A DNA stretch of 30,318 nucleotides, from the IMG/VR virus record IMGVR_UViG_3300005340_000521, positions 1 through 30,318 of that record; one strand, 5' to 3'. Source of the DNA: a virus. The translations under genes were made by a program, and so were the position numbers. The notes below the pieces were generated by a model, which searched no databases, was not told the origin of the DNA, and saw nothing but the letters and a program-made list of their open reading frames with translations. How positions within the stretch are numbered: position 1 is the stretch's first letter; the number at the start of each line of letters is the position of its first letter. Of this stretch, positions 1 through 26,632 are shown piece by piece.

Positions 1-1533
1 AGCCCCCAGCTCGCCCTGCCAGTAGGAGAGCAGCTCGCGTCCCGTCGGGAGCTCCTCGTAGGTGCCGAGCGCGGCGATTCCCGCATCGGTGATGGTGAGC
101 CGGTCCCGCGAGCCCTCCATCCATCCTGCGGCGCGTCCCCTTCCCAGGTAGGTATCGAAGGTGCCGCTCTTGCTAGAGAGCCCGGCGCGCACGCCGAGCT
201 GCTGCGCGGAGAGCCCCTGCGGGCGCTGCGCGAGAGCGGTGAGCATCCGACGCAGGCCGCCTCGGCCCACAGCGGGGTCTGGGTCTACGCCGCGGGACGC
301 CTTCGTTTCACGGGTAGCACGCGGGCGGGTCGGCGCGGGCACCACCAGATGCCGCGCGGGAAACGAGGGCCCCGCGCGTCCGTTCCCAAGGCTCTTCAAC
401 GACGCAACGACCTGGTTCCCGACCTGGTGCGCCACACGCACCTCGGCCAGAAGTCGCTCGTACCGCTCGTAGAACGAGTTCGTCCATGTCTCGAGCTGCT
501 CGACGAGCTCAGCGAAGACTTCGATCTGCACCTGCTGGATGGCGGGAACCTCGACGCGCTCGATCTTGGCCTCTGCCGTCGGCCGCGCCTTCAGCTGGCG
601 CTCGAGCTCGAGGATCTTCTTCCGCAGCTCGCGCGGGTCCTCAGCCTTCGCGCGTTCGATCGTCTCCGCCATCCTGGTCTTGATCGCGCCCAGGTCGACG
701 TCGGCGAGGGTCGCCGGCGGGCGGGCGCCGTGGACGTCCTTCGGTGTCGCCCCGCTGTCGAAGGTGGTAGAGCGGCGCGTCAGGACACGCGCAGTCGTCC
801 GAAGCCACGACGGGGACCAGACCCACGCCTCGCCGTTCTTCAGCCCTTCGAGGCTGGCGAGCAGCTCCTTCGCCTGGCCGTGGAACTCGACCCAGGCAGC
901 GATCGCCTTGCGGTCTTGGGGCGACGTCGTACGGAGGACGAAGAGGGTCTCGACCTGCGTCAGGACGCTCTTGTTCAGGGACGCGGACCGCTGCGTGATC
1001 ATCGTGATGCCGAGCCCGCGAGCCCGGCCGCGTCGGACGATGTTCTCCCACGATCGGAGCAGGCGCGCCTGCTCCCTGAACGGCCGCTGCGGACAGTAGT
1101 CGTCGGCCTCCTCGAGGAACAGGTGGAGCGGGTCCTGGTTCTTCCGGTAGAGCCGCTCCGCGAAGTCGATCAGGAACCGGATCTTGTCTCCCTCGCTGAA
1201 CTCGGAGACATCGAGCACGCAGGAGAGCCGGTCCCCAACGACCAGGTCGGCGATGAGGGCGCCGCCGGTCTTCTCGAGGGGGACGTCCTGTTTCCTGCCG
1301 CCGAAGATCGGGATCTCGATCCCCGCGCCCTTCCCATCGCGTGAGGAGCGCAGGCCCCACCAGGAGCCGACGGGATCCACGGCGACGAACGGGAGCTTCG
1401 CCGCATACATTTCCTCGGCCATGACGCGCGCGAGGTTGGTCTTCCCTGCCCCACGCATCGCGAGGATCCCGAAGGTCTGCGTGACGGCGTTGAGAGGGAG
1501 GAACAGGTCCTCGGAGATGCGGAGGCCCTTCAT
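1..1533 (-). CDS. HerA-like AAA ATPase (partial, runs off left edge)
   Basis: The frame is open from an ATG at 1533 to the window edge, giving at least 511 residues with no stop. A P-loop is visible near residues 22-32 (GILAMRGAGKT), followed by a Walker-B-like strand ending in two acidic residues near 141-142 (HLFLEEADD). A glycine/arginine-rich segment and a sensor-like strand follow near 170-185 (GLGITMITQRSASLNK). This pattern is typical of the HerA/VirB4 branch of the FtsK-HerA superfamily, which moves DNA or drives end resection with a nuclease partner. After about residue 260 comes a probable coiled coil. The visible C terminus looks like a winged helix (LTALAQRPQGLSAQQLG). The ATG overlaps the upstream stop as ATGA. 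It is the last visible gene of an operon that also encodes two nucleases, which supports a DNA-processing role. A packaging or partition role is an alternative. Confidence 0.82.
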   Translation of the reverse strand, partial: MKGLRISEDLFLPLNAVTQTFGILAMRGAGKTNLARVMAEEMYAAKLPFVAVDPVGSWWGLRSSRDGKGAGIEIPIFGGRKQDVPLEKTGGALIADLVVGDRLSCVLDVSEFSEGDKIRFLIDFAERLYRKNQDPLHLFLEEADDYCPQRPFREQARLLRSWENIVRRGRARGLGITMITQRSASLNKSVLTQVETLFVLRTTSPQDRKAIAAWVEFHGQAKELLASLEGLKNGEAWVWSPSWLRTTARVLTRRSTTFDSGATPKDVHGARPPATLADVDLGAIKTRMAETIERAKAEDPRELRKKILELERQLKARPTAEAKIERVEVPAIQQVQIEVFAELVEQLETWTNSFYERYERLLAEVRVAHQVGNQVVASLKSLGNGRAGPSFPARHLVVPAPTRPRATRETKASRGVDPDPAVGRGGLRRMLTALAQRPQGLSAQQLGVRAGLSSKSGTFDTYLGRGRAAGWMEGSRDRLTITDAGIAALGTYEELPTGRELLSYWQGELGA

Positions 1534-1712
1534 GTTCGCGCCTCCAACACCTTCTTCACCTGCTGGCAGTCCGCGCACCGCACACGGCTCAGCCCCGCGC
1601 GGTGCCAGGCCGAGGAGTGCTCCGCGCGGCAGTCGACGCAGCGCTTCCGATCGCGCAACTCCGCCTGGAGAGTGCGCTCGTCAACGGCGCGTAGGTCGAT
1701 GCGAGGCTTCAC
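1530..1712 (-). CDS. Small zinc-finger-like protein, 60 aa
   Basis: A short basic protein with two cysteine pairs, CVDC and CADC, separated by about 20 residues that include a histidine (AEHSSAWH). This spacing would suit one structural zinc site. It starts at a GTG that overlaps the upstream stop as GTGA. Its own stop overlaps the ATG of the HerA-like gene. A longer in-frame reading from 1757 would run deep into the upstream gene and is less likely. Function is unknown. Its position between nuclease genes and the ATPase suggests a small accessory or DNA-binding protein, which is inference only. Confidence 0.6.
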   Translation of the reverse strand: MKPRIDLRAVDERTLQAELRDRKRCVDCRAEHSSAWHRAGLSRVRCADCQQVKKVLEART

Positions 1713-12862: not shown

Positions 12863-13029
12863 GCCTCGCCGGCGCGGATGTAGCGATCGGCGTCGAGCTG
12901 AAGTGCCTCGAGGACCTGGGCGTCGTTTGGCATCTTTCCGCCGCTGGCGTTGGCGTGGGCGCGGATCACCGCGGCGATCTCGGGGATGATGATGTCTTTC
13001 AGGAGCAGCGCGAGGAGTTCGGGGTTCAC
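12838..13029 (-). CDS. Small helical orphan, 63 aa
   Basis: Starts at GTG overlapping the upstream lipoprotein stop as GTGA. The first 25 residues form an amphipathic to hydrophobic helix (ELLALLLKDIIIPEIAAVI), then a glycine-rich turn and a second helix (DAQVLEALQLDADRYI). It lies at the end of the lysis block. Unknown function; a membrane-active lysis accessory is possible, but the sequence does not show it. Confidence 0.58.
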   Translation of the reverse strand: MNPELLALLLKDIIIPEIAAVIRAHANASGGKMPNDAQVLEALQLDADRYIRAGEAWLKANPA

Positions 13030-13415
13030 CGGGCATTCTCCATGATCGCGTCGAGGATCCCCAGGTAGGGTCCGAGCCGCGCGCGCTCCGCCGGCGCGAG
13101 CTGGTTTTTCATCCCCACGTAGGCCGGACCGACCGTCGTATGCCAGCCATCGGGCGAGGCCTTCAGCGTTTTCGCCGCATCCACCGTGAACTGAACGACG
13201 TGGCGCGTCGTCTCCGTCGAGAGCTCGCCGGCGGCGTTGGCGTCGATCGCCGCCGTCTGGAGCTCGCCGATCCGGAGGACGACCTGATCCGCCGCGTAGG
13301 CGGTCTTCCCTGCCGGCGTCTGTACCGACGGAGGAGGGCACGCGATGCAAGTCAGCGCGAGAACGCCCAGGGCCACGATGAACACCAGGAGCTCGGCGCG
13401 TGTCTGTCGGCTCAT
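13026..13415 (-). CDS. Probable lipoprotein of the lysis cassette (outer spanin candidate)
   Basis: With the ATG at 13415, which overlaps the upstream stop as ATGA, the protein begins MSRQTRAELL. A hydrophobic signal region follows (LVFIVALGVLALTCIAC), with the last cysteine in an imperfect lipobox. The mature part, rich in Ala and Thr, starts PPPSVQTPAG, a proline-rich opening seen in many outer-membrane spanins. At 129 residues it is long for a spanin of that type. ATG at 13433 is an alternative start. If correct, it would pair with an inner-membrane coiled-coil protein (13980-14252) to fuse membranes at the end of lysis. Confidence 0.55.
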   Translation of the reverse strand: MSRQTRAELLVFIVALGVLALTCIACPPPSVQTPAGKTAYAADQVVLRIGELQTAAIDANAAGELSTETTRHVVQFTVDAAKTLKASPDGWHTTVGPAYVGMKNQLAPAERARLGPYLGILDAIMENAR

Positions 13416-13543
13416 CTTCGTCGTCCGGTCCATCCTTCCCGTTCCTTTCGCCGCGTCTCGATGAACGCGAAGAGCCAGGCGGCGCCGCAGACGATCACGA
13501 CGATCGCTGCGGCAACGACGAAGCCCTGTGTGAACCCGCTCAC
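13412..13543 (-). CDS. Small membrane protein, 43 aa
   Basis: GTG at 13543 overlaps the upstream stop as GTGA. One transmembrane helix (FVVAAAIVVIVCGAAWLFAF) is followed by a strongly basic tail (ETRRKEREGWTGRRR). The charge pattern suggests the tail stays in the cytoplasm. Its place between a holin candidate and a lipoprotein makes a lysis role likely, for example antiholin or accessory holin. Confidence 0.6.
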   Translation of the reverse strand: MSGFTQGFVVAAAIVVIVCGAAWLFAFIETRRKEREGWTGRRR

Positions 13544-14493: not shown

Positions 14494-14834
14494 GCGGGCA
14501 CCCACTTCCCTTCCCGGATGAAGCCGTGGTCTCCGCACGCCACGCACAGGAGCGACGGGGTGACCGTGAAGGGCTCCCAGGAGACGACGGGCCAGAACAC
14601 ACCGCGAGTGTCGATCCGGCGCGCCGTCGGCGAGTCGAGCGTGATCGCGCTCTGGCATGGCTTCCCGTCTTTCGTCTCGTGCGCGACCCACACCGAGTAA
14701 CGCTCGACGTCGGGGACGTCGGCATACTGAGGATTCAGCGCGCGGTCGGGGTGGAAGCCCATGAACTGCATGAAGTGGTTGTGTCCCAGGTCCGTGAACC
14801 GCGACGGATCGTCGTGCTCGTAGAAGGCGCTCAC
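14490..14834 (-). CDS. DUF6527-like protein, 114 aa
   Basis: The C-terminal third shows SLLCVACGDHGFIREGKW, the Cys-x-x-Cys-Gly-x-His-Gly-Phe-Ile pattern with a following Gly-x-Trp that I recall from DUF6527 proteins in phages and plasmids. The function of that family is not established. Residues 40-75 are strand-rich. The GTG at 14834 overlaps the endolysin stop as GTGA, so it is coupled to the endolysin gene. Confidence 0.65.
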   Translation of the reverse strand: MSAFYEHDDPSRFTDLGHNHFMQFMGFHPDRALNPQYADVPDVERYSVWVAHETKDGKPCQSAITLDSPTARRIDTRGVFWPVVSWEPFTVTPSLLCVACGDHGFIREGKWVPA

Positions 14835-15316
14835 GCGGCCCTCACGAGCGCGATCGCCGCGGCGGGTGAATCGACCAGGCGATAGAGAGTCCCGTGCCCA
14901 GGCTTGCGGAAGGCGGCGAGCAGCTGGTGACGTCCCGGCTCGCGCCGGTCGTACGAGACGTGGACCCAGGCGCCGAACTCCCAGATCAGTTGATCGAAGG
15001 GCGCGTTCTCCCAGAGCCAGACCAGCAGCTCGTGCAATGTCGCAACGAGTGGACGCAGGTCCCCGGCCTGACCCTTCGTGTGCTGGCTTCCCGGCGCACC
15101 GCCGACGAGCGCGTTCACGGCTGGGGAGCGAAAGCCGCTGTTGACGTGGATGGGACCCAACGCGGCGCGCGCGGGCTCGAGGACGTGTTTGCAGAGAGCC
15201 TGCAGGTTGAGGAGCTCGTCCGGGCCCGGGACGTTCGGTAGCCCGTGTCGGATCGCCGTCTCGGAGAAGGTCATCTCCTCGGGCGTGAAGTGGTCCGTGA
15301 GCTGGACGACGCTCAT
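14831..15316 (-). CDS. Peptidase M15-type endolysin, 161 aa
   Basis: The zinc-peptidase residues of family M15 are all visible: H79 and D86 in SQHTKGQAGDL, E113 near IWEFG and H119 in WVHVSY. The substrate-side motif VNSGFRSPAVNALVGG precedes them. M15 phage enzymes cut D-Ala-containing or L-Ala-D-Glu peptide bonds in peptidoglycan. There is no signal peptide, so export needs one of the holin candidates encoded further downstream (13958-13412). It is the first gene of the lysis segment, behind a 216-base gap with two inverted repeats. Confidence 0.88.
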   Translation of the reverse strand: MSVVQLTDHFTPEEMTFSETAIRHGLPNVPGPDELLNLQALCKHVLEPARAALGPIHVNSGFRSPAVNALVGGAPGSQHTKGQAGDLRPLVATLHELLVWLWENAPFDQLIWEFGAWVHVSYDRREPGRHQLLAAFRKPGHGTLYRLVDSPAAAIALVRAA

Positions 15317-15914: not shown

Positions 15915-18900
15915 TTACATCGCTCTTGAGAAGACGATCTCCACCATCGCGAGCTGGCGCGCGGTCGCTCCGATCGTGTCGTTGCCGGCAGCGGGGTTGC
16001 GGGTGAGCTTGATGTGCATGAGCTCCCCCGCGGAGCATCCGGTGACGCCGTTCGTCATCGTGATGGACGACAGCTTCGGCTTCGAGGCCACGCCTGGTGC
16101 CGCCACAGCTCCAGTGCAGTCCGCTGTGTTGAAGGACGGGTCATTCGTCTCGGTGCCATCGTTCGCCACGCAGGTTGTCGCCACGCACCATTCCATGTTC
16201 CCTGACGTCGCCGTGGTCATCCACGACACCTTGAACGTGGGAACCGACGACAAGCTCACATCGGAAGGGATCTGGTACTGGTAGTAGCTCGACCTGGTCG
16301 TCCCGTCGTCGTTGTAGTCGAGAACGGGCTGAATCGTGTTGGTTCCCGCGATGCACGCACCTGCGGGAGGATTCGTCGAGGGGAGGTTGGCGTCCGTCGG
16401 TGCGAAGGTCCCTGCATTGCAGCGGCCGACCTGCAGTCTCACCGGCCATGGGATCGTGACCGTGTTCCCGGTACCTGAGGCGTCGAGGGTCTTGTTCGTG
16501 AAGGTGTCCGTCGAGCTGGGGGTCGTCACCGCGAAACAGCTCTCCGCCGCTCCGGAAGCGTCGACACCAAGAGGCGCCTGGCCGGCGGCGCAGTTCGAGC
16601 CATTGGCGGCCAGCGCGGTGGTCGTCGTGGCGTTCCCCGAGAGCGCCCCCGAGAACGTGGTTGCCGTGACCGTGCCGCTCGACACCGTCGCATCGACTGT
16701 GCCGTCCCCGTTCCCGTCGAGCTGCAGGCCGGAGCCGTCCGTCTCCTTGATGATCGCGAAGGTGCCGTCGGCGTCGTCATTGAGGGAGATGTCGGAGCTG
16801 GAGAATTTCCACCGCCCCGTCGCCGTGTGACTCGTGAGCTCGAGCCTCTGGATCTCTGCGCCGCTGCCGTCCGTGCCCCAGCCCTCGAAGGAGCTGTCCC
16901 CGTTCGAGAAACCTGTGAAGTAGTGGTAGCCATCGGGCGAGCTCAGACTCCCGATCCCTGCCGAGTGGGCCGTCGAGGAAATCAAGTCCCCGAACGCGTT
17001 CATGATCCGCTTGGCCGTGCCGTTGTTCTTCCAGCGCATGAGGTTTCCGCTCATCGTATTGGAGGTATCGAAGTCGTAGGCAGTGCCGGAGGCGGTCACC
17101 GAGCTGCCGAAGGTCCCAGGCGTCGTGGTCATCTTGCCCGTGAGACTGACAGCGTCGAACTGAGACGAGCTCGATGTCGGTGCCTGAAAACCTCCGGTGC
17201 TCAGGACGAAATTCCCTGAGTTGTTCGTCCCCTGCAGCGTCGCCGTGAATGCGGCCGCGCAGGTGGAGTTCCATGCCTTCAGGACCGTGTTCCTTCCCAC
17301 GGGCGCGCTCGTACAGCCCGAGTCCACGGTGCTCGCGTAGACGGGCGCGTAAGGTGAGGTTGACGTCGCGGCCGCATCCGTGCAGCTCTCGGAGGCGCCC
17401 GAGACATCGACTCCCAGCGGGTACTGACCGGCCGAACAGTTGGATCCGTTGGCCGCGAGAGTCGTGGCGGTTCCCGCATTTCCTGAGACGTTCCCGGTGA
17501 CGTCCCCGGTCAGATTGCCCAGGAACACGGAAGCACCGACGTAAGCTACGTGCTCGAAGAAGCAGTGCGTCGAAGCGTCCACCGCGCCCGTCTCACAGTA
17601 GAAGCGCCGCGTGGGGACGCTGAGGTTGTTCAGCGTGAAGGCCTGGAACGGATCCGCGTCACCGTAGAGGCCGACGAAGTGCCCCTCGCTCCATCTCTGG
17701 CCTCCGATTCCGACGTATTGCCCGATGTCGTTGTCGTTGGAAGGGAGCAGCGGGCCATCGAGCGTGATCCCTCCGCTGATCTCGCCTCCGCCGAGGTTCT
17801 CGAACGGTAGGCCGTCGAAGTTGACCGTCGTGACGCCGCCAGGCGAGGTGATGCATACGTGAGTGGTGCCATCGAGATCCCCGTCCGTGCCCACGACCGG
17901 GACGCATTGCGCGCTCGTCGTTGTGAGGGGCCTGCAGCTGATGCCTCCGAGGCTGTTCGATTGCCGAAGCGCCTCCCCATCCTTACAGGTGCCGTCCGCG
18001 TCATGGATGATCTTGTAGTCGAAGGTGCCGTTCGCGTCGGGATCGATCCGAATGTCGTTGTTCGTGCTGTCGCCGGTGCGGTCGAAGATCCAGCTGCTCG
18101 ACTGCGTCGAGCTGCTCGTCCAGACCGGGAGCCGCCCCGACGTGCCACCTGAGAGCGAGCCCCCGGCGTTGTCGAGCCACTCCTCTCCCCCGTCCTTCGT
18201 GCCGTTGCAGTTTTTGTCCCCGAACAGGCGCCCCGAGGTTTCATCCTCGTCGACGCAGGAGCGGCCTGTCCCGTCTGCATCCGAGTCGAAGGCGAGCGGA
18301 CCCTCGGACTGAGCCGTCACCGCGACCGTCCCGAAGGCCGGTTTCGTCATGCGAAGGCCCCCGACGAAGGGGAAGTTCGCCGTCCCGCTATTGACGCTCG
18401 TGTCGAGCGTCACCCCAGTCGTTGCTCCGAAGACCTTGTTGACGGTGACCGTCGAGTTCGAGACGGTCGAGGGCTTGATCGTCGGCACCAGGTTCGCTCC
18501 GGTGTTCTCGGAGAGCGTCAGAGCGTCCCCGGTTCCAGTGACCTTCGGCTGGAAGTTCAGCTGCGAGAGATCCAGCCCGTAGAGCGTCACCGGCGCGGTC
18601 ATCGCGGTGCCTGATGTCTGAAGCGTCACATCGTCGAGGTAGATGGGATCCGAACCGCTGTTGTTCGACCCGCCATTGAAGAACTGCACGTAGAGCCAAT
18701 AACTGTTCCCCGCGGTGCCGGGATTGAAGGGAAAGCTGTACGTGTACTTCGACCAGACGCCGTCATTGGGGAGGATGACGTAGGGCGTGCCTCCGAGGGA
18801 CGGACTCCCGGCGCCCCAGGTGGTGAAGACGCCGGAGACATTCGTGAGCGAGTAGTCGGCAGTGGTCCCCGTCTGCGATGTGAAGGCCTGGATATCCCAG

Positions 18901-19868
18901 TATGCTTTCTTCGCCCCGCCGCCGCTGTTGTTGCCGTACATCCAGAACGAGAGCGTGAGGGTGTTGCTCGAGCCCGAGACCTGCAACAGGTAGTGCAGGA
19001 ACGGCGACCCGCCGCCGGTGTACCGCGTCGAGCGGAATTCCTTCCCACTGACGGCGTCCTCGTATGGCAGCTTCGCAGAGGAACTCCCGGCATGGACGAT
19101 CGTCGTCTCCTGGATCGGCATGTGGATGGCGCTGCCGGCCTTCCAGTCGGGCAGGACCGTTGTGGATGTCCACCCTTCGACGCCTCCGTCGGAGAGCAGG
19201 TTGGGCCCGCCCAGGGCCGCGCCGGCCGCCGCGATGATCGTGCCCCGCGGCGCGAGCCCGTGGTAGACCTGCGTGCTGGGCGTCGACATGTACGTCGTCG
19301 AGTCGTCAAGGGTCACCTCCGCCGGCGAGAAGTTCAGGGAGGCGTCGTTGCCGGTCGCGAAGTCGTACCAGGAGGCGCGCCGGGTGACCGAGGAGCTCTG
19401 TCCCGTGCGTAGCTCGAGGCGGTGCGAGGAAGAGTCGTAGGTCACCCCGCCCAGGGCGCCCGAGGCCGCGCCGACCGATGAACGCCAGAACGCCATCTTC
19501 CCGGCGAGAAATCCTTCGTCGTTGGACGTCTGGAAGCTCGTCGTCCCGTCATCTTTGATCGTCGCGCAGCCGAGGTGCGTCGAGTTCGAGTACTTCGAGA
19601 GCCGGTCCGCGTTGGCGCACGCACCGATGCCGGATCCGGTGGGGTTGCCGGGTGCGCTCGAGTCGGCGCAGACCTCCCACTGCCCGGACGGATTGCAGCA
19701 GTACGTGGTTCCGCGCGCCTTGCCCTGCCGGATGATCTGCGGATCATCGGAGCTCGAGCAGGACCCCGAAGGGGCCACGCCCACCGAGTCGGGGATCCCG
19801 TCGCCGGCGAGCGCCGCGGGGATGGAGATCAGGACGCAGAGCAGGAGCGCCAGAGTTCGTCTCACCAC
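15915..19868 (-). CDS. Large tail fibre / receptor-binding protein with Sec signal peptide, 1317 aa
   Basis: GTG at 19868 overlaps the upstream stop. Residues 1-21 are a clean Sec signal peptide (RRTLALLLCVLISIPAALA, cleavage after ALA). A Cys-rich segment spans about 35-100. Residues 224-415 resemble a jelly-roll carbohydrate-binding module (from NLLSDGGVEGW to YLDDVTLQ). Several Asp-rich loops of the D-x-D-x-D-G type follow (DSDADGTG, DPDANGTF, DGNGDGTVD). Two copies of a repeat (LAANGSNC-AGQ-PLGVD) lie in the C-terminal half. The last 150 residues form a Cys-containing tip domain. Gene order after tail-tip genes says fibre; the signal peptide says export. Both readings must be explained. 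Confidence 0.75.
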   Translation of the reverse strand: MVRRTLALLLCVLISIPAALAGDGIPDSVGVAPSGSCSSSDDPQIIRQGKARGTTYCCNPSGQWEVCADSSAPGNPTGSGIGACANADRLSKYSNSTHLGCATIKDDGTTSFQTSNDEGFLAGKMAFWRSSVGAASGALGGVTYDSSSHRLELRTGQSSSVTRRASWYDFATGNDASLNFSPAEVTLDDSTTYMSTPSTQVYHGLAPRGTIIAAAGAALGGPNLLSDGGVEGWTSTTVLPDWKAGSAIHMPIQETTIVHAGSSSAKLPYEDAVSGKEFRSTRYTGGGSPFLHYLLQVSGSSNTLTLSFWMYGNNSGGGAKKAYWDIQAFTSQTGTTADYSLTNVSGVFTTWGAGSPSLGGTPYVILPNDGVWSKYTYSFPFNPGTAGNSYWLYVQFFNGGSNNSGSDPIYLDDVTLQTSGTAMTAPVTLYGLDLSQLNFQPKVTGTGDALTLSENTGANLVPTIKPSTVSNSTVTVNKVFGATTGVTLDTSVNSGTANFPFVGGLRMTKPAFGTVAVTAQSEGPLAFDSDADGTGRSCVDEDETSGRLFGDKNCNGTKDGGEEWLDNAGGSLSGGTSGRLPVWTSSSTQSSSWIFDRTGDSTNNDIRIDPDANGTFDYKIIHDADGTCKDGEALRQSNSLGGISCRPLTTTSAQCVPVVGTDGDLDGTTHVCITSPGGVTTVNFDGLPFENLGGGEISGGITLDGPLLPSNDNDIGQYVGIGGQRWSEGHFVGLYGDADPFQAFTLNNLSVPTRRFYCETGAVDASTHCFFEHVAYVGASVFLGNLTGDVTGNVSGNAGTATTLAANGSNCSAGQYPLGVDVSGASESCTDAAATSTSPYAPVYASTVDSGCTSAPVGRNTVLKAWNSTCAAAFTATLQGTNNSGNFVLSTGGFQAPTSSSSQFDAVSLTGKMTTTPGTFGSSVTASGTAYDFDTSNTMSGNLMRWKNNGTAKRIMNAFGDLISSTAHSAGIGSLSSPDGYHYFTGFSNGDSSFEGWGTDGSGAEIQRLELTSHTATGRWKFSSSDISLNDDADGTFAIIKETDGSGLQLDGNGDGTVDATVSSGTVTATTFSGALSGNATTTTALAANGSNCAAGQAPLGVDASGAAESCFAVTTPSSTDTFTNKTLDASGTGNTVTIPWPVRLQVGRCNAGTFAPTDANLPSTNPPAGACIAGTNTIQPVLDYNDDGTTRSSYYQYQIPSDVSLSSVPTFKVSWMTTATSGNMEWCVATTCVANDGTETNDPSFNTADCTGAVAAPGVASKPKLSSITMTNGVTGCSAGELMHIKLTRNPAAGNDTIGATARQLAMVEIVFSRAM

Positions 19869-20326
19869 TGGGTCACCCCGCCGGTTCCGATGATCGAGGG
19901 CACGACGTCGACGACGTCGACGGTCTTGACCTTCATCTCGATGGCGACACCCACGGGGGCCTTGTCCCCCAGGGGCTCCCAGCCGTAGGAGTCGAGGACG
20001 ACTGCGCGCTCTGTTGTTCCCCCGTTCAGTGACAGGTAGACCGTCGCGGTGTCGTCGTTGAGGGCGTTGAAGACGGCGACGAGCGAGGCCTCGTCCGCCA
20101 TGACAGACAGCTCGAACTTGAGCGTCACTCCGATCCGTACCCCGAAGCGCCGCTCGATGAGCTTCTTCCCCGGGGTCATGCGCTGCGTCTTCTCGGGGAT
20201 GTACTCGAGCCTGGTGGAGATCGGCCCCGGAGTCGAGGCGAGCCCGGTCAGGTCGTAGAGCGTGCCGTCGGTGGGGCCGTCCTCGTAGACGACCCTGAAG
20301 CGCCAGGTGTAGGCGTAGCCAGCCAT
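19862..20326 (-). CDS. Tail-tip or fibre-attachment protein, 154 aa
   Basis: A beta-rich protein (YTWRFRVVYEDGPTDG, then FGVRIGVTLKFELSVMADE) with one helix (SLVAVFNALNDD), without signal peptide or coiled coil. It lies between the hub-like protein and the fibre, in the place of siphovirus distal tail or fibre adaptor proteins. A GAGAGG site lies about 11 bases before the ATG. The gene is separated from the upstream one by 120 bases and overlaps the fibre GTG at its end. Confidence 0.6.
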   Translation of the reverse strand: MAGYAYTWRFRVVYEDGPTDGTLYDLTGLASTPGPISTRLEYIPEKTQRMTPGKKLIERRFGVRIGVTLKFELSVMADEASLVAVFNALNDDTATVYLSLNGGTTERAVVLDSYGWEPLGDKAPVGVAIEMKVKTVDVVDVVPSIIGTGGVTQW

Positions 20327-20446: not shown

Positions 20447-22678
20447 TCAGATCGCTTCCACGAGCCTCATCTCGATCGACCTCTCCGCCCAGGAATAGTT
20501 CGTCTCGTACACCGCCCACTCCTCGGCGCCGATCCTCACTCGCTGGTAGGGGAAGTAGATCGTCTCGTCATCATCGATCGTGAGCTGGCGCCGGCGCCGC
20601 GCGCGCGAGTAGAACTGCTGATAGCCGTAGGCCAGCCCCGACTGGACCGACAGATTGTCGACGTAGGAAGCCTCGATCGAGAGCTCGTCCCCGGTGAGCG
20701 AGGCATCGCCCACCGTGATGGACTGTCCATTCGCTGTGACGGTAACCCTCCCAAACCACTTCTCCCAGACGGCGTCCTCCTCCTGGTCGATGATCAGCCC
20801 ATCGATCTCCTTTGTCTCCGTCGCGTTGAAGACCTGGCTATTCCTCGACACGAAGTAGCCGTTGAAGTCGTTGTCGACGTAGGCCACGGCGTTCACGATC
20901 TTCGCGAGCTCGACCAGGGCGCCGGCGATCGTCTTCCCGGAGAAGTCCGCATAGGAGACGATCCCGCCGTAGAGCGTATCGATCACTACGGCGCGCCCGT
21001 CGACGTAGCCGAAGACTTGGTTTCCCACCGCAGCCAGGTTGTTGGAGAAATCCCAGTTCTGACCGGGGTACTGGTTTGAAGAGCCGGAGTCACTGAAGGC
21101 GAGCGTCGTGATCGTCGTGAAGTATTGGTCCGCGATGAGGATCTGACTGCGGTCCTTGCGGAGGAGGATCCCGACCCAGCGGCCGTTCACGTAGCGCATC
21201 GTGGGGACGCGGATCCCCGCGGGAACGGTCACTTCGAACCGCAGCAGCGACCCGCGCCAGCCCTGCAGCGTCACCCCGTCGGCCTTCAGGCGCAGGAGCA
21301 GATCCGCGGAGCGGGAGTAGACGAGCCGTCCCATGCTCGATGTGGAAGTGCCGGAGGCGGCGCTGTCGAGGAAGGTATGCGTCCCGCCGGCGACGTCGTA
21401 GTAGCCGAACCGCCCGCCGTTGCTCCCGTTGTTGGCCCCGTAGGCGAACCAGACGCGGCCGTTGGCGCTGTCCCACTCGCAGGACACGATCACGTTGTCT
21501 TGGTTCCCGCTGATCGTCTCTAGGGTGTGCAGGTCCACGAGCGCCGCGGGGATGTCCCGGACGAATGGCGTCCAATCCCCATAGGAGATCTGGAAGGTCG
21601 TAGCCGCGATCCGCACCACGTACTTCCTGGGCTGGGGAGAATGCGCGTGGTCCACGCCCTCGCCGTCCGCGCGGTCCAGGCTCCCGCCGGTCCCGTTCTT
21701 GTACTGGGTCCACTGGATGGTCTTCTGCGAGGGCTCCGCGAGCTCGTACTTGGTCCAGTCCACGAAGAATGAGCCGTCCGGGTCATCGGCGTTCGATCCG
21801 CCGATCTGCGCCCCGTCGGACAGCACGGTGAATGGATCGCCCGCGCTCGTCGTCTCGTACTCCAGCCGGTTGGTCATGCGAAGCCGGATCTTCGAACCCA
21901 CCTGGAGGAAGCCCGTGGGGTTCTGATTGGGTAGCCCGTCGGTGTTGATCGGGGAGCCCACGGGGATGGCGAAGTCGGCCCCGGTGAGGTCGATCGTCGG
22001 GTTCGTGATCCCGGCCGCGGCGAACAGCTGCTGGACGAGGTAGATGATCGACTTGCGCCGGTAGTACGGCGTGAGGACCTCGACCTCGGATCCGATGGGC
22101 CATGTGTTCGAGAGCTGGGTCTTGAGGGTGACGACAGTTCCAGAATTGACCGAGGAGATCTCCGCTTCCTCGGCGTCCTGGGCGAAGGCCAGGGCCGGGT
22201 CTGAGGTGATGCGAACCCGGTCATCGCGGGTGAGACCCGCGGTCGTCGGGAGCGTGAGCTGGAACTGGTCGGCCGCGGCGTCGGCGGTCAGGGTGAGCGC
22301 GGAGAAGGTCCTCTTCACCGATTCGGCGGACACCTGATCGAGAAGCGCCAGGTAGCCGAAGGCCGTGATCGTGACGAGCGCCTCGTTCGCCGAGCTCGTC
22401 ACCTGCCCCGGCAGCGCGATGATCCCCTCGAAGAGCTTCTTCCCGTTGCGGGCGATCCGGAGCCGGTAGGTCAAGGTGGGGTCGGCGCCGGCGAACAGCG
22501 CCGAGACCGACCCGGCCTTGTCGTGCAGGGCGAGCGTGATGTCCCCGGTCCTGAACTGGAGGAGCGAGTCCTCGATCGCGTAGGAGTACGCACCCATCTG
22601 ATCGGCAACGACCAGGTCCGAGACGTCGGTCCAGTCGCCTGCCGGGTTCTGGATTTCGAAGACGTAGCTGTCGGCCAC
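20447..22678 (-). CDS. Tail hub / baseplate-like protein, 743 aa
   Basis: The N-terminal 110 residues (YVFEIQNPAGDWTDVSDLVV onward) are beta-rich, like distal-tail proteins that cap the tail tube. Next comes a stretch with a helix (RKSIIYLVQQLFAAAGI), then a long central region of Tyr/Trp-rich strands that may be a beta-propeller-like insert. The last 130 residues (from DGLIIDQEEDAVWEKWF) return to a hub-like fold with a Tyr/Arg-rich end. The gene directly follows the tape measure gene by 9 bases, the standard place for tail-tip hub proteins. No lysozyme or peptidase motif is seen. Confidence 0.7.
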   Translation of the reverse strand: MADSYVFEIQNPAGDWTDVSDLVVADQMGAYSYAIEDSLLQFRTGDITLALHDKAGSVSALFAGADPTLTYRLRIARNGKKLFEGIIALPGQVTSSANEALVTITAFGYLALLDQVSAESVKRTFSALTLTADAAADQFQLTLPTTAGLTRDDRVRITSDPALAFAQDAEEAEISSVNSGTVVTLKTQLSNTWPIGSEVEVLTPYYRRKSIIYLVQQLFAAAGITNPTIDLTGADFAIPVGSPINTDGLPNQNPTGFLQVGSKIRLRMTNRLEYETTSAGDPFTVLSDGAQIGGSNADDPDGSFFVDWTKYELAEPSQKTIQWTQYKNGTGGSLDRADGEGVDHAHSPQPRKYVVRIAATTFQISYGDWTPFVRDIPAALVDLHTLETISGNQDNVIVSCEWDSANGRVWFAYGANNGSNGGRFGYYDVAGGTHTFLDSAASGTSTSSMGRLVYSRSADLLLRLKADGVTLQGWRGSLLRFEVTVPAGIRVPTMRYVNGRWVGILLRKDRSQILIADQYFTTITTLAFSDSGSSNQYPGQNWDFSNNLAAVGNQVFGYVDGRAVVIDTLYGGIVSYADFSGKTIAGALVELAKIVNAVAYVDNDFNGYFVSRNSQVFNATETKEIDGLIIDQEEDAVWEKWFGRVTVTANGQSITVGDASLTGDELSIEASYVDNLSVQSGLAYGYQQFYSRARRRRQLTIDDDETIYFPYQRVRIGAEEWAVYETNYSWAERSIEMRLVEAI

Positions 22679-22687
22679 GGCGGGAGC

Positions 22688-25600
22688 CTACTCCCCGACC
22701 CGGGACTTCTTGATGATCGTGCGCTGGATCTCTTCCAGGCCGCGGTTGAGATCTTTGAGGAGCTGCATCTTCGTCGAGGCGATGATCCCCTCGAGGTGGA
22801 CGTGCGCTTCCGTGGAAGGGGCGAAGGTCGTCTGCCGGTTGTCCTGATTGATGATCGTCGACGGAGCGGCGCTGGACGCGGAGAAGCCGCCGGGCGCGGT
22901 GCCTGCGAGCACCGGCGCGGCGAAGTAGTTCTGGGCCATTTGCCGCGCGACGTCCGCGGGGGGGGTGCTGGCGGGGGAAATGCCCGCGGCGGGGCCGGTT
23001 CGAAGGGCCTCGACGGTGACGGAATCCCCGGGGGCCAGCCGCACGTTGCCGCCCTCACGGCGCGCCCCGCGAGCGGTGCCACCAGAGCCTTCATAGTCCG
23101 AGCGCCTGTCATGGACGAGGGCTGCGCGGCCGTAGTCGCGGCGCGGCTCCGGAGAGTCCGAGGCGCTGCGATCTTCGGGCGTTCCGCTGGGGCCGATCGT
23201 TCCGGGTGTGACGAGGCCCGTCTCGGCGCTGTAGACGTCCGTCCCCTCGCCCGCGGACGGCTGCTGCGCACCCGGGACGCTCGCCCTGGCCATCTGGACC
23301 GCCCAGCTCGCGCGGATCTCTCGCGCCTCGGGCGTGTCGGCCCAGGGATTGACCGGGGCCGGACTGTGAGCGCCAGCGGCGGCCGAGCTGGGCGCCGCAG
23401 CCGGTGGGGGTGCGGCCGTTGGAGCGGTCACTGGCACGGACGGCCGCGCCTGTATCGGCTCGGGCGGTACGGGGAAACCCTTGTCGGGCGGAAAGGTCTC
23501 GGCAAGGGTCTGGGCAAGGGCTGGAGACTGCTCAGGCTCCGCTCTCGCCGGTGCTGCGACGTTGGGCGGGGTCACGACAACGGCCGTCCCCTGCGTAGGG
23601 GCTACAGGCTTGGGCGCCGCAGGAGCGGGCGCCTGAGCACTGATCGGCGCCGCTGAAGCCGGAGCCGGGACGGAAGGTGCACCCGGCGGGACCGTCGGCG
23701 CCTGACCGGCCGGAGCGCCACTGGTGAGAGCCGGTGCCTGTTTCGCCTGCTCCGATGAGGGGGCCGTCGGGGCGGCCGGGGGTGCCACCAGGATGACCGT
23801 CCCGTGCTGGACGGTGGACTGGCCCGCGGGAGGTCCGTCTTGCGTGCGCGAGACCGGCGGAAGAGGCGCGGGGGCCACCGTGCCCGAAATGGAAGGAGTT
23901 TCGGGCGTGACACCTTGGCCGGAAGCGGGAGAAGGGCCAGCATCCTGCGCGCGACGCCCGTCAACATTGGCTTGTGGCGGCGTGGCGGATTGTGGCGGCA
24001 CGGGACCCACCGCGCCCGGAATGGGCGCCGGGAAGCGCACGGCTCCCGTCGCGGCGTCCGCTGGCAGACCGGTGACGTCGAGGCGTTCGGGGCGACCGGA
24101 TACGGCGGACGCCGACTGGGGCGCCTGAGATGGAGCCGGTGAGGCAGGCGGCCCGGCCGGTGGCGGCGCTTGGCCCGGAGGAGCGCTCGCGGACTCGCGC
24201 CACGGCTCCGGGGCGGCCGTGGCGGGCGGAAGCGATGGCGCAGTGTGCTGGATGGTCTCGGGCGGTGCGGAAAAGTCGCCCGGCGTGACCGCCGGAGCTG
24301 GACCCTGAGCCGGAGGTGCCGGTGCCTCGGGCATCTTCCCGGGCGCGGGGGCAGGCCCTGGAGCGCGGGTCAGAACCTCGGCCCAGCCGTCGGCGATCGC
24401 CTGCTGAAGCGGAGAGTCGTTCGGGGTCCCGGGCGAGCCGGCCGGACCAGGAACCGGGCGCCCCTGAGCCGCCGCGGCGGCGCCCGCCTCGAACTCACGG
24501 ACCATGTCTGTGGCCCAGCGGTAGCCCCCGACGCGGGCGGCCTTGTCGGCTCCGGGATCATCGAACCCGACGCCTTCGATCTGCGCGACACGGGCGAGAC
24601 CCGCGACGATGGCTTCAACGGCCGCCGCGACGGCAAGCTCCGGGCCCACCACGGGGATCCCGATCTGCGACTCGTAGGCTTTCTGCGCCGCGGCGTACGT
24701 CGAGATGATCGTCGCGGCGACTGCCAGCGCCTTGTTGCCGCCGAAGATCGATGAGAGCGAACCCAGAACGCCCGCGGCGATGTCCTCGTACTGGATCTGG
24801 ATCGCCTTCGCCGACATCGCGTGAACGCGCGTGATGCCGGCCTGGATCGCCTCTTCGGCGGCGGCCTCGGCTTCGGCGAGCCGGAGCTTCTGATCGTCGG
24901 TCTTCTTGGTGTCGGCGAGCTCGGTCGCGAGGCTCTTGCGAAGAGAGGCGAGTTCCTGATTGAGGGCCTGCTCGCGCTGGACGATCTCGAGAAGGCCCAT
25001 CTGGTGCAGGTCCTCGACCTGAGCCCGCAGGGCGGACTGGTGGAAGGCCTCGATCTTGGCGTCGGTCTTCCGTACTTCGTCGATCTCGACCTGGTCCTGC
25101 TTCTGGATGATCGCGATGCGCTGGTTCGCGTACGCCTGATCGAAGGAGGCGATCGCGGACTCGGTCTTCTCCTCGAGGACCATCCGCTCGCGCGCGACCT
25201 GGTAGTCGAAATCGAGGACGCGCAGCTCCGCATCCATGCGCTCGCGTGTGCCCTCCTTGTAGAGGGCGATCTCGGACTGCAGCTCGTCGTGCCGGGCTTT
25301 CTGTTCGACCGTCGCAGTGGCGAGGGTGTTGCGCTCGAGCAGGGCGGTGCGCTCATTCGCGAAGGTCTGGTGAATCTGCTGGATCGACTCTTCGGACGCC
25401 TTCTCATGCTGCGCGCGGCGCACGGAGGCGGTCTCTTCGAAATCGAGGAGCTTGGTCTCTGCGGCGATCCGCTCCTGGGTCCCGGCCTTGGTGAGCTCGA
25501 CCTCGGAGTGCAGCTCTCGGACGTAGATCTCTTCCTTCGTCCTGGCGATCTTCTCGGCGGCCTCGGCGGCCGTCTTTGCCGCAGCCTCCGCCTCGGCGCG

Positions 25601-26632
25601 GTCCTTGAGGCCCGTCTGCTCCTTCAGCTTGGAGAGCCCCTCGGTTTCCTCCCCGACCTTGGCGATGTTCTTGTTCCAGATCTGATAGAAGTCCTCGGCC
25701 GTCTGCGCGCCCGCGGCCTTCATCTCCCGCATCGAGACTTCCCAGGCATCGCTCATGCCCTTGAAGAAGTCCTTGGGCGCGGTGAAGAGCTTCGTGATGT
25801 TGGGGACGTTGCGCATCCCCGTGGCGAAGGCCTCGAACTGCGCGACCAGCCCACCCAGTCCAGTTCCGACCGACTGAATGAGTTTGATCGCGTCGTCGAA
25901 GAGGCCCAGCACGAAGACCCACGCGGGGGCGAACGCATCCCCGACGCTCTTCTTCAGGTTCTCCCACCGTACGGCCTGCTGATCGAGCGCCTTCTGCGTG
26001 TCGTCGGTCTTGGCGAGGAAACCCGAGAACTTCTCGATGACCTCCGACATCACCTCGGCATGGGTCTTCGCCTTGCCCGAGGCGTCGACCTGAGCGATCC
26101 CGAGCTGGCGCAGCGAGCCGAGCATCCGGCCCTGGATGATGTTCACGACCAGGTCGGTGGCCGCGCCCATGTCCATGTGCTTCTGCGCCGAGATGTCGGC
26201 GGCGAGCGAGGTCGCGGCCTCCGCTGCCTGCGTGTCGCGCAGGATGCCGGCGAACTTCGTGAACGCGGGGATCGCCTGCGACTCCAGCACGCCCTGGCCA
26301 CCGAGCGACTCGACGAACTCCCGCACCTTGGGGCCCTGGCTGGCCGCGTCCGAGCCGATCGTCCGAAGCGTGCTGTCGAGGTCCTCCCACGCCCGTTCGA
26401 TCTTCGCGGACTCGCTGATCCCTTCCCGGTAGAACTCCGAGAGTGCGCCGACGGCGAGAAAGCCAAGGAACTCCTGCTGGAGCTCCTGAAAACTCTCCTT
26501 GAGCTGGAGCCCCTCGTCCTTGGTCTCCTGGAGGGACTTGCGGTTCTTCTCGAGGGCGTGGTCGAGATCCTTCAGTCCCCGTTCGTCGAGGATCGTCTCG
26601 ATGACTGCCCGGATGTTCAGTTCATCGGCCAT
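22688..26632 (-). CDS. Tail tape measure protein, 1314 aa
   Basis: The longest minus-strand gene besides the fibre, helical throughout, and directly after the tail chaperone. Residues 1-300 are a TMP-type helical head; about 340-650 form long coiled coils with two similar 77-residue units starting near residues 372 and 449 (ELHSEVEL..., ELQSEIAL...). A hydrophobic glycine/alanine segment (VLGSLSSIFGGNKALAVAAT) lies near 615-690 and may enter the host membrane. Residues about 710-1250 are extremely rich in Pro and Ala, then a short helical C terminus (VHLEGIIASTKMQLLKDL). Tape measure length sets tail length, roughly 0.15 nm per residue. No murein hydrolase motif was found. Confidence 0.9.
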   Translation of the reverse strand: MADELNIRAVIETILDERGLKDLDHALEKNRKSLQETKDEGLQLKESFQELQQEFLGFLAVGALSEFYREGISESAKIERAWEDLDSTLRTIGSDAASQGPKVREFVESLGGQGVLESQAIPAFTKFAGILRDTQAAEAATSLAADISAQKHMDMGAATDLVVNIIQGRMLGSLRQLGIAQVDASGKAKTHAEVMSEVIEKFSGFLAKTDDTQKALDQQAVRWENLKKSVGDAFAPAWVFVLGLFDDAIKLIQSVGTGLGGLVAQFEAFATGMRNVPNITKLFTAPKDFFKGMSDAWEVSMREMKAAGAQTAEDFYQIWNKNIAKVGEETEGLSKLKEQTGLKDRAEAEAAAKTAAEAAEKIARTKEEIYVRELHSEVELTKAGTQERIAAETKLLDFEETASVRRAQHEKASEESIQQIHQTFANERTALLERNTLATATVEQKARHDELQSEIALYKEGTRERMDAELRVLDFDYQVARERMVLEEKTESAIASFDQAYANQRIAIIQKQDQVEIDEVRKTDAKIEAFHQSALRAQVEDLHQMGLLEIVQREQALNQELASLRKSLATELADTKKTDDQKLRLAEAEAAAEEAIQAGITRVHAMSAKAIQIQYEDIAAGVLGSLSSIFGGNKALAVAATIISTYAAAQKAYESQIGIPVVGPELAVAAAVEAIVAGLARVAQIEGVGFDDPGADKAARVGGYRWATDMVREFEAGAAAAAQGRPVPGPAGSPGTPNDSPLQQAIADGWAEVLTRAPGPAPAPGKMPEAPAPPAQGPAPAVTPGDFSAPPETIQHTAPSLPPATAAPEPWRESASAPPGQAPPPAGPPASPAPSQAPQSASAVSGRPERLDVTGLPADAATGAVRFPAPIPGAVGPVPPQSATPPQANVDGRRAQDAGPSPASGQGVTPETPSISGTVAPAPLPPVSRTQDGPPAGQSTVQHGTVILVAPPAAPTAPSSEQAKQAPALTSGAPAGQAPTVPPGAPSVPAPASAAPISAQAPAPAAPKPVAPTQGTAVVVTPPNVAAPARAEPEQSPALAQTLAETFPPDKGFPVPPEPIQARPSVPVTAPTAAPPPAAAPSSAAAGAHSPAPVNPWADTPEAREIRASWAVQMARASVPGAQQPSAGEGTDVYSAETGLVTPGTIGPSGTPEDRSASDSPEPRRDYGRAALVHDRRSDYEGSGGTARGARREGGNVRLAPGDSVTVEALRTGPAAGISPASTPPADVARQMAQNYFAAPVLAGTAPGGFSASSAAPSTIINQDNRQTTFAPSTEAHVHLEGIIASTKMQLLKDLNRGLEEIQRTIIKKSRVGE

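Follow-up and report, generated by a model that had tools for sequence, protein, structure and literature searches.

Tailed-phage assembly, in its textbook form, ends in the cytoplasm, and the fibres of these phages are normally free of signal peptides. The canonical fibres of the Caudoviricetes (T7 gp17-like or collar-domain fibres, including those of loci L124, L130, L196, L215 and L234 and gp74 of EBPR siphovirus 2) are encoded in the tail operon and consist of a long repetitive shaft (GDVTGN.., DTLTNKT) and a C-terminal beta tip. They carry no signal, their virion-binding part starts at residue 1, and they are nearly devoid of cysteine. The receptor-binding protein pIII of filamentous phages carries a Sec signal, forms disulfides in the periplasm and is incorporated outside the cytoplasm; it is not a protein of tailed phages, and its virions are extruded. 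Within the tailed phages, Sec export is described for the fOg44 endolysin Lys44 and for SAR endolysins (PMC6116005), and lambda encodes a signal-bearing surface protein, Lom, among its tail genes (PMC12309495). As for receptor-binding proteins, gp38 is predicted to lack a signal peptide (PMC12946066) and a further study reports none on its fibre (PMC12989515), in line with the textbook view. A search of the open-access literature returned no report of a Sec signal on a tailed-phage fibre. Sec export is known for endolysins and surface proteins, and a Sec-exported tail fibre would be without precedent in the open-access literature searched.

The protein considered here is encoded in a partial virus record of 30,318 bases (the window). 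It resembles the canonical fibres in its place in the tail operon, its repetitive shaft and its C-terminal beta tip, but differs from them in a predicted Sec signal and a content of 2% paired cysteines. The fibre as proposed below is similar to pIII in Sec signal, disulfides and extracytoplasmic incorporation, a likeness of description only. It would also behave like Lys44 and the SAR endolysins, which are made late, use the host Sec pathway and wait beyond the inner membrane, but which are lysis enzymes and not virion parts. Lom shares the N-terminal signal and the location among tail genes, but is a small outer-membrane beta-barrel whereas the window protein is long, repetitive and Cys-rich. 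A Lom-like outer-membrane moron was rejected as an identity for the 1317-residue product, for which Pfam and PHROG gave no short beta-barrel match.

The fibre gene and its N-terminal signal

In order of transcription the late block of the window comprises head-tail adaptor and tail-completion genes, the major tail protein, the tape measure, a 743-aa tip candidate, a 154-aa gene, the fibre and a Peptidase M15 endolysin (Table 1). The fibre thus has the position expected of a tail fibre, downstream of tape measure and tip, and the block showed no other recognisable fibre gene. It has no match in Pfam or PHROG and so does not fall into a recognised fibre family; the 154-aa and 743-aa proteins likewise gave no family match in these databases. 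No direct relatives of the fibre, 154-aa, tip or tape-measure genes were found in viral contigs, the phage collection gave no match for the fibre, tip or 154-aa genes, and a PDB sequence search with the fibre returned noise only. Elsewhere in the window, an ATPase at the record's end (1-1578, minus strand) matches a terminase PHROG (E 1.7e-17), reads as HerA/FtsK-type and is located far from the structural genes. A small protein near the endolysin (13026-13433, minus strand) contains a lipobox-like LTCIAC and is a possible outer-membrane spanin (Rz1-like).

Table 1. Position of the fibre gene, its parts and its neighbours in the window
Feature	Position	Strand	Basis
Fibre-like protein, 1317 codons	15915..19868	-	ORF and translation, GC3, tail-tip/endolysin neighbourhood, C-terminal domain homology
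Predicted Sec signal (type I) in the first 21 codons, cleavage ALA/GDG	19806..19868	-	Sequence, rule, shuffles
Cys-rich stretch of mature N-terminus, residues 37-101, six Cys	19566..19760	-	Translation
Cys-bracket module copy 1, GDVTGNVSGNAGTATTLAANGSNC-x17-C, residues 788-829	17382..17507	-	Translation, contig scan
Cys-bracket module copy 2, residues 1074-1111	16536..16649	-	Translation, Cys-free anchor comparison
C-terminal beta domain, residues 1140-1317, six Cys	15918..16451	-	Homology to L032; family with L187, L234, EBPR siphovirus 2 gp74
154-aa gene directly upstream of fibre, stop overlapping fibre start (GTGA)	19862..20326	-	ORF list, translation
Tail-tip or hub candidate, 743 aa, 1 Cys	20447..22678	-	Position after tape measure
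Tape measure protein, 0 Cys	22688..26632	-	PHROG tape-measure families, E 3.6e-9
Endolysin, Peptidase M15	14831..15316	-	PF08291 E 1.1e-17; phrog_894 E 4.7e-34

The fibre frame is open over 1480 codons, of which 19868 is the earliest start in the ORF list, and neither ATG, GTG nor TTG occurs in the approximately 160 open codons 5' of it. Two adjacent GTG codons are candidates, at 19868 and 19865, and the second is the likelier start because it overlaps the stop of the 154-aa gene as GTGA; the signal is retained with either. GC3 over codons 1-20 is 0.85 and matches the rest of the gene, so that this segment is coding sequence. Further in-frame starts are located downstream at GTG 29, GTG 31, ATG 125 and GTG 142.

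The N-terminus reads M(V)RRTLALLLCVLISIPAALA/GDGIPDSVG, or VVRRTLALLLCVLISIPAALA/GDGIPDSV with the first GTG read as Met, the slash marking the predicted cleavage. It is composed of an n-region MVRR, a core TLALLLCVLISIPA and the site ALA/G with the cut predicted before Gly22, and shows a positive n-region, an uncharged hydrophobic core, Pro at -5 and Ala at -3 and -1. These are the n-region, core and small -3/-1 residues of a Sec type I signal, and the segment passes a strict, home-made signal-peptide rule. The predicted mature protein would begin with GDGIPDSVGVAPSGSCSSSDDPQIIR. A sequence-only reading of this DNA had described MVRR, a hydrophobic core and an ALA site followed by a Cys-rich stretch at the head of a 1317-residue fibre and had named signal-peptide prediction as a check; the description is confirmed. 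The rule is passed by 1.8% of shuffles of the first 45 fibre residues and by 0.25% of random draws from the fibre body. Processing as a lipoprotein by SPase II is rejected, as C11, the signal's lone cysteine, falls within the core and no lipobox L-[AS]-[GA]-C is present.

A virion-binding domain is absent from residue 1, where the signal takes its place, and no recognised virion-binding motif is present at the mature N-terminus (GDGIPDS..). The cysteines of the stretch that follows are at positions 37, 57, 58, 67, 84 and 101. Further along are two copies of a Cys-bracket module, both reading GNAGTATTLAANGSNCSAGQYPLGVDVSGASESC or a close variant, at about residues 796-829 and 1078-1111. The DTLTNK-type shaft and the C-terminal domain are common to L032, L187, L234 and EBPR siphovirus 2 gp74, the C-terminal region including the shaft being 37% identical to L032 over 200 aa, and the domain is a probable receptor-binding tip. 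Its structure model is a beta-sandwich of low confidence (pLDDT 63) with best viral matches at TM 0.58-0.67, and this weak model matches phage fibre-like as well as carbohydrate-binding beta-sandwiches. Searches of Pfam, PHROG and PDB sequences did not bear out the suspicion of a carbohydrate-binding domain at residues 222-420.

Signals and cysteines in relatives of the fibre

Public contigs were scanned for the Cys-bracket module with the window sequence and two consensus variants of our own as queries, which yielded 145 viral loci of which 80 were kept, and 15 loci in bacterial or archaeal genomes; these loci are partly related and not all independent. The two cysteines of the module, 18 apart, are both kept in all 39 distinct copies when these are collected with a Cys-free anchor. 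A weak structure model (pLDDT 63) places a hairpin between them, and a fold search with this model gave no significant match. The module is also found in large signal-bearing proteins (...NYQGRLERDNAPI...) on the Elusimicrobia MAG contigs L082, L085, L090 and L093, which lack a clear phage context, and therefore does not by itself define a fibre.

A closed 5' end is present in 70 non-redundant module ORFs from viral contigs. The strict signal rule is passed by 50 of these, compared to 32 of 194 other same-strand ORFs of at least 300 aa (Fisher 1e-16). About a dozen of the 20 that fail show a signal by eye or at an internal start, as if the start had been mis-called (L006, L039, L044, L055, L079, L028 and L080 are examples), and L187, which also fails, begins with MRKWLALAALAGALQGQ, a signal by eye. 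As a control, 80 loci with canonical collar-domain fibres were taken from the same collection and 71 of their fibres scored. Only one passes (Fisher 1e-20 against the module set), and this one looks like a mis-called start. Fibres that have only the DTLTNKT shaft in common with the window protein are also without signal. The tripartite organisation and the cleavage motif are conserved among the relatives although these have no N-terminal sequence in common, and L049 and some others carry a TM-like segment in place of a cleavable one. Signal-bearing fibres with the Cys-bracket module are a recurrent class, which the sequence-only reading had overlooked.

The mature window fibre contains 26 cysteines, an even number, in about 1297 residues (2.0%), whereas the same operon has 0 in the 1314 residues of the tape measure, 0 in the 154-aa protein and 1 in the 743 residues of the tip protein. 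Median cysteine content is 1.7% in module proteins as opposed to 0.58% in ORFs without signal and 0.4% in collar fibres, and most shaft-sharing fibres have 0.0%. Counted after residue 35, cysteines come in even numbers in 49 of 69 module proteins (P 0.0006); for the other neighbours that bear a signal the figure is 44 of 63 (P 0.002), compared to 162 of 288 without signal. Paired, conserved and even-numbered cysteines are features of a disulfide-bonded extracytoplasmic protein. The C-terminal domain allows a direct comparison: its signal-bearing homologues (window, L032, L187) have four cysteines in common, and the signal-free ones (L234 and EBPR siphovirus 2 gp74, which sits near an annotated tail gene of the same phage) have none at these four columns. 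The window has an extra pair (WCVATTC and ADCTG) which is absent as a pair from L032. An exception is gp48 of Pelagibacter phage HTVC112P (L100:2738-5008), a putative tail fibre with 14 cysteines and no signal. The paired cysteines, the parity bias and the contrast between signal-bearing and signal-free homologues say that the module proteins evolve as if living in an oxidising compartment, and on these grounds the signal is judged to be in use. The signal, the cysteine pairing and the relatives lend good support to export of the fibre beyond the cytoplasm, to the periplasm or cell surface as the sequence-only reading had suggested.

Signals in front of structural proteins

Several module proteins match PHROG tail-fibre or virion families, and the neighbours of module ORFs match tail-fibre, head and terminase families. 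The gene order of the window recurs in L036, where the tape measure and a hub-like gene are followed by one more gene of the tail block, then by three that bear signals, a short one and a lysozyme. In L065 and L080 the signal is directly followed by YTPNLNL..P...(T/P)WGE..NNNF (YTPNLNL..P...TWGEQYNNNF), and the signal-free fibres of L124, L130, L196, L215 and L234 begin with sequence like this post-signal stretch. The tail-collar fibre of ctLwi270 (MW202554, a complete genome; L104:10530-11555 in MW202554.1) begins MIVLVLLFLLLSISSADA/GTITRPTKSFGGSSF.., with a signal-like segment that is unremarked in the annotation and fails the rule for want of a positive n-region. A second signal-bearing fibre-like gene is present in the same genome at L104:5994-6488.

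The same arrangement is seen in podovirus nozzle-like proteins related to P22 gp10 and KF-1 gp42, in which a signal stands before the homologous part. In L071:13264-15645 the homology to the gp10-like 'phage stabilization protein' starts right after the predicted cut, and L066:11088-13475 and L077:10781-13129 are 51% identical to each other and have unrelated signals; both show a relationship to a KF-1 (Edwardsiella phage) virion protein. A further protein, L066:3978-5126, has a signal while its homologue L077:4461-5612 (L078:4455-5606), at 37% identity, has none. Given this contrast and the cases of L065, L080, ctLwi270, L071 and L066/L077, it appears that ordinary structural proteins of phages have acquired a preceding signal on more than one occasion.

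In L036, L051, L060, L071 and L077 the module fibre is adjoined by two to four consecutive genes with signals, and some of these neighbours are lectin-like (Laminin_G_3). Two large signal-bearing proteins from different phages, L051:10958-14803 and L071:2332-5652 (1282 and 1107 aa), are 29% identical over 1078 aa.

A proposed route to the virion and its alternatives

With moderate confidence it is proposed that the gene encodes a receptor-binding tail fibre which leaves the cytoplasm through Sec, is then oxidised and trimerised, and is added to virions while the cell lyses or afterwards. Late in infection the fibre ORF would be translated in coupling with the preceding tail gene, as the GTGA overlap suggests. 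The signal would direct the chain through SecYEG, and signal peptidase is predicted to cut after ALA at residue 21. Once in the oxidising periplasm, the 26 cysteines of the mature chain would be joined in disulfides, including a bond across each of the two Cys-bracket modules, as their pairing, their parity and the contrast with non-exported homologues indicate; export, cleavage and disulfide formation may be deduced from the Sec pathway. The folded fibre would wait beyond the inner membrane and bind the tail tip once lysis opens the cell, which would make its attachment a last, extracytoplasmic assembly step. That the fibre joins virions at lysis is the main uncertainty of the scheme. It is physically plausible, since the fibres or tailspikes of T4 and P22 can attach to finished particles in vitro. 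The benefit to the phage might lie in stable, disulfide-bonded fibres and in the avoidance of sticky fibres on particles that are still in the cytoplasm. The sequence-only reading had offered addition to particles during or after lysis as one outcome; it is now favoured by the signals that precede fibre N-termini and nozzle-like proteins in other phages, from which it would extend to the window phage.

The main rival is an exported protein that never joins the virion but is displayed or released and covers receptors on the cell and on debris, either saving progeny or blocking superinfection, as does T5 Llp, a phage-coded exported protein of the receptor-covering kind. This is considered rather unlikely, although the signal and the paired cysteines fit it equally well, other signal-bearing lectin-like proteins (Laminin_G_3) adjoin module fibres, and an exported protein among tail genes has a precedent in lambda lom, located between the tail spike and fibre genes (PMC12309495). 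Were the protein a decoy only, the virion would be fibreless, as the tail module has no other recognised fibre, and the window fibre shows no recognisable outer-membrane barrel, lipobox or autotransporter domain. Moreover, the signals of L065, L080 and ctLwi270 precede fibre N-terminal sequence that is presumably needed for virion binding, and those of L071, L066 and L077 are borne by nozzle-like structural proteins. Of the receptor blocking that the sequence-only reading had considered, the export is upheld while the blocking itself finds no specific support. The gene could also be the moron of a temperate phage, a bacterial-type surface adhesin that alters the surface of the lysogen, in keeping with the module in signal-bearing proteins on bacterial MAG contigs. 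This is improbable for a gene that sits in the late tail-lysis block, shares its strand and overlaps the preceding gene by 4 bases, and whose C-terminal domain is common to fibre-like phage proteins; in addition, the genes scanned in this partial record included no recognisable integrase or repressor family.

Only slightly better placed than the moron, and still improbable, is a fibre which is assembled in the cytoplasm after all, either from a downstream start or with the hydrophobic segment as an uncleaved plug into the tail tip. The in-frame GTG codons at 29 and 31 and the TM-like, non-cleavable segments of relatives such as L049 speak for it. The downstream start is, however, rejected on the coding GC3 from codon 1 and the GTGA overlap, and the virion anchor that the sequence-only reading had held in reserve fits badly with relatives that keep the features of a signal and not its sequence, and with a signal that accompanies high cysteine content of a parity indicating an oxidising compartment. 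That 1.8% of own-composition shuffles pass the rule speaks for a chance hydrophobic N-terminus without function, but this is highly improbable in view of the strong recurrence among relatives. As an explanation for the class it is refuted by the proportions of 50/70 module ORFs against 32/194 other ORFs and 1/71 collar fibres.

If the whole class is Sec-exported and disulfide-bonded, as the proposed route has it, phage assembly would gain a compartment that has been overlooked in the literature searched. Sec and Dsb of the host would then count as a phage host factor, such receptor-binding proteins would often be hard to produce recombinantly in the cytoplasm, and annotation pipelines could mislabel these fibres as secreted proteins of the host. 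The markers of the class are simple, namely a signal, the Cys-bracket module and an even number of cysteines. It is tentatively suggested, with less confidence than for the window fibre, that in many uncultivated tailed phages with diderm hosts the tail is completed outside the cytoplasm, through Sec export, periplasmic oxidation and joining at lysis of fibres and, in some podovirus-like genomes, of nozzle-like proteins too (L071, L066 and L077), which would give tailed-phage assembly an extracytoplasmic final stage. A hint at a host comes from L061, which is 90% identical to the Bryobacteraceae MAG protein L087, so that its host would be a diderm.
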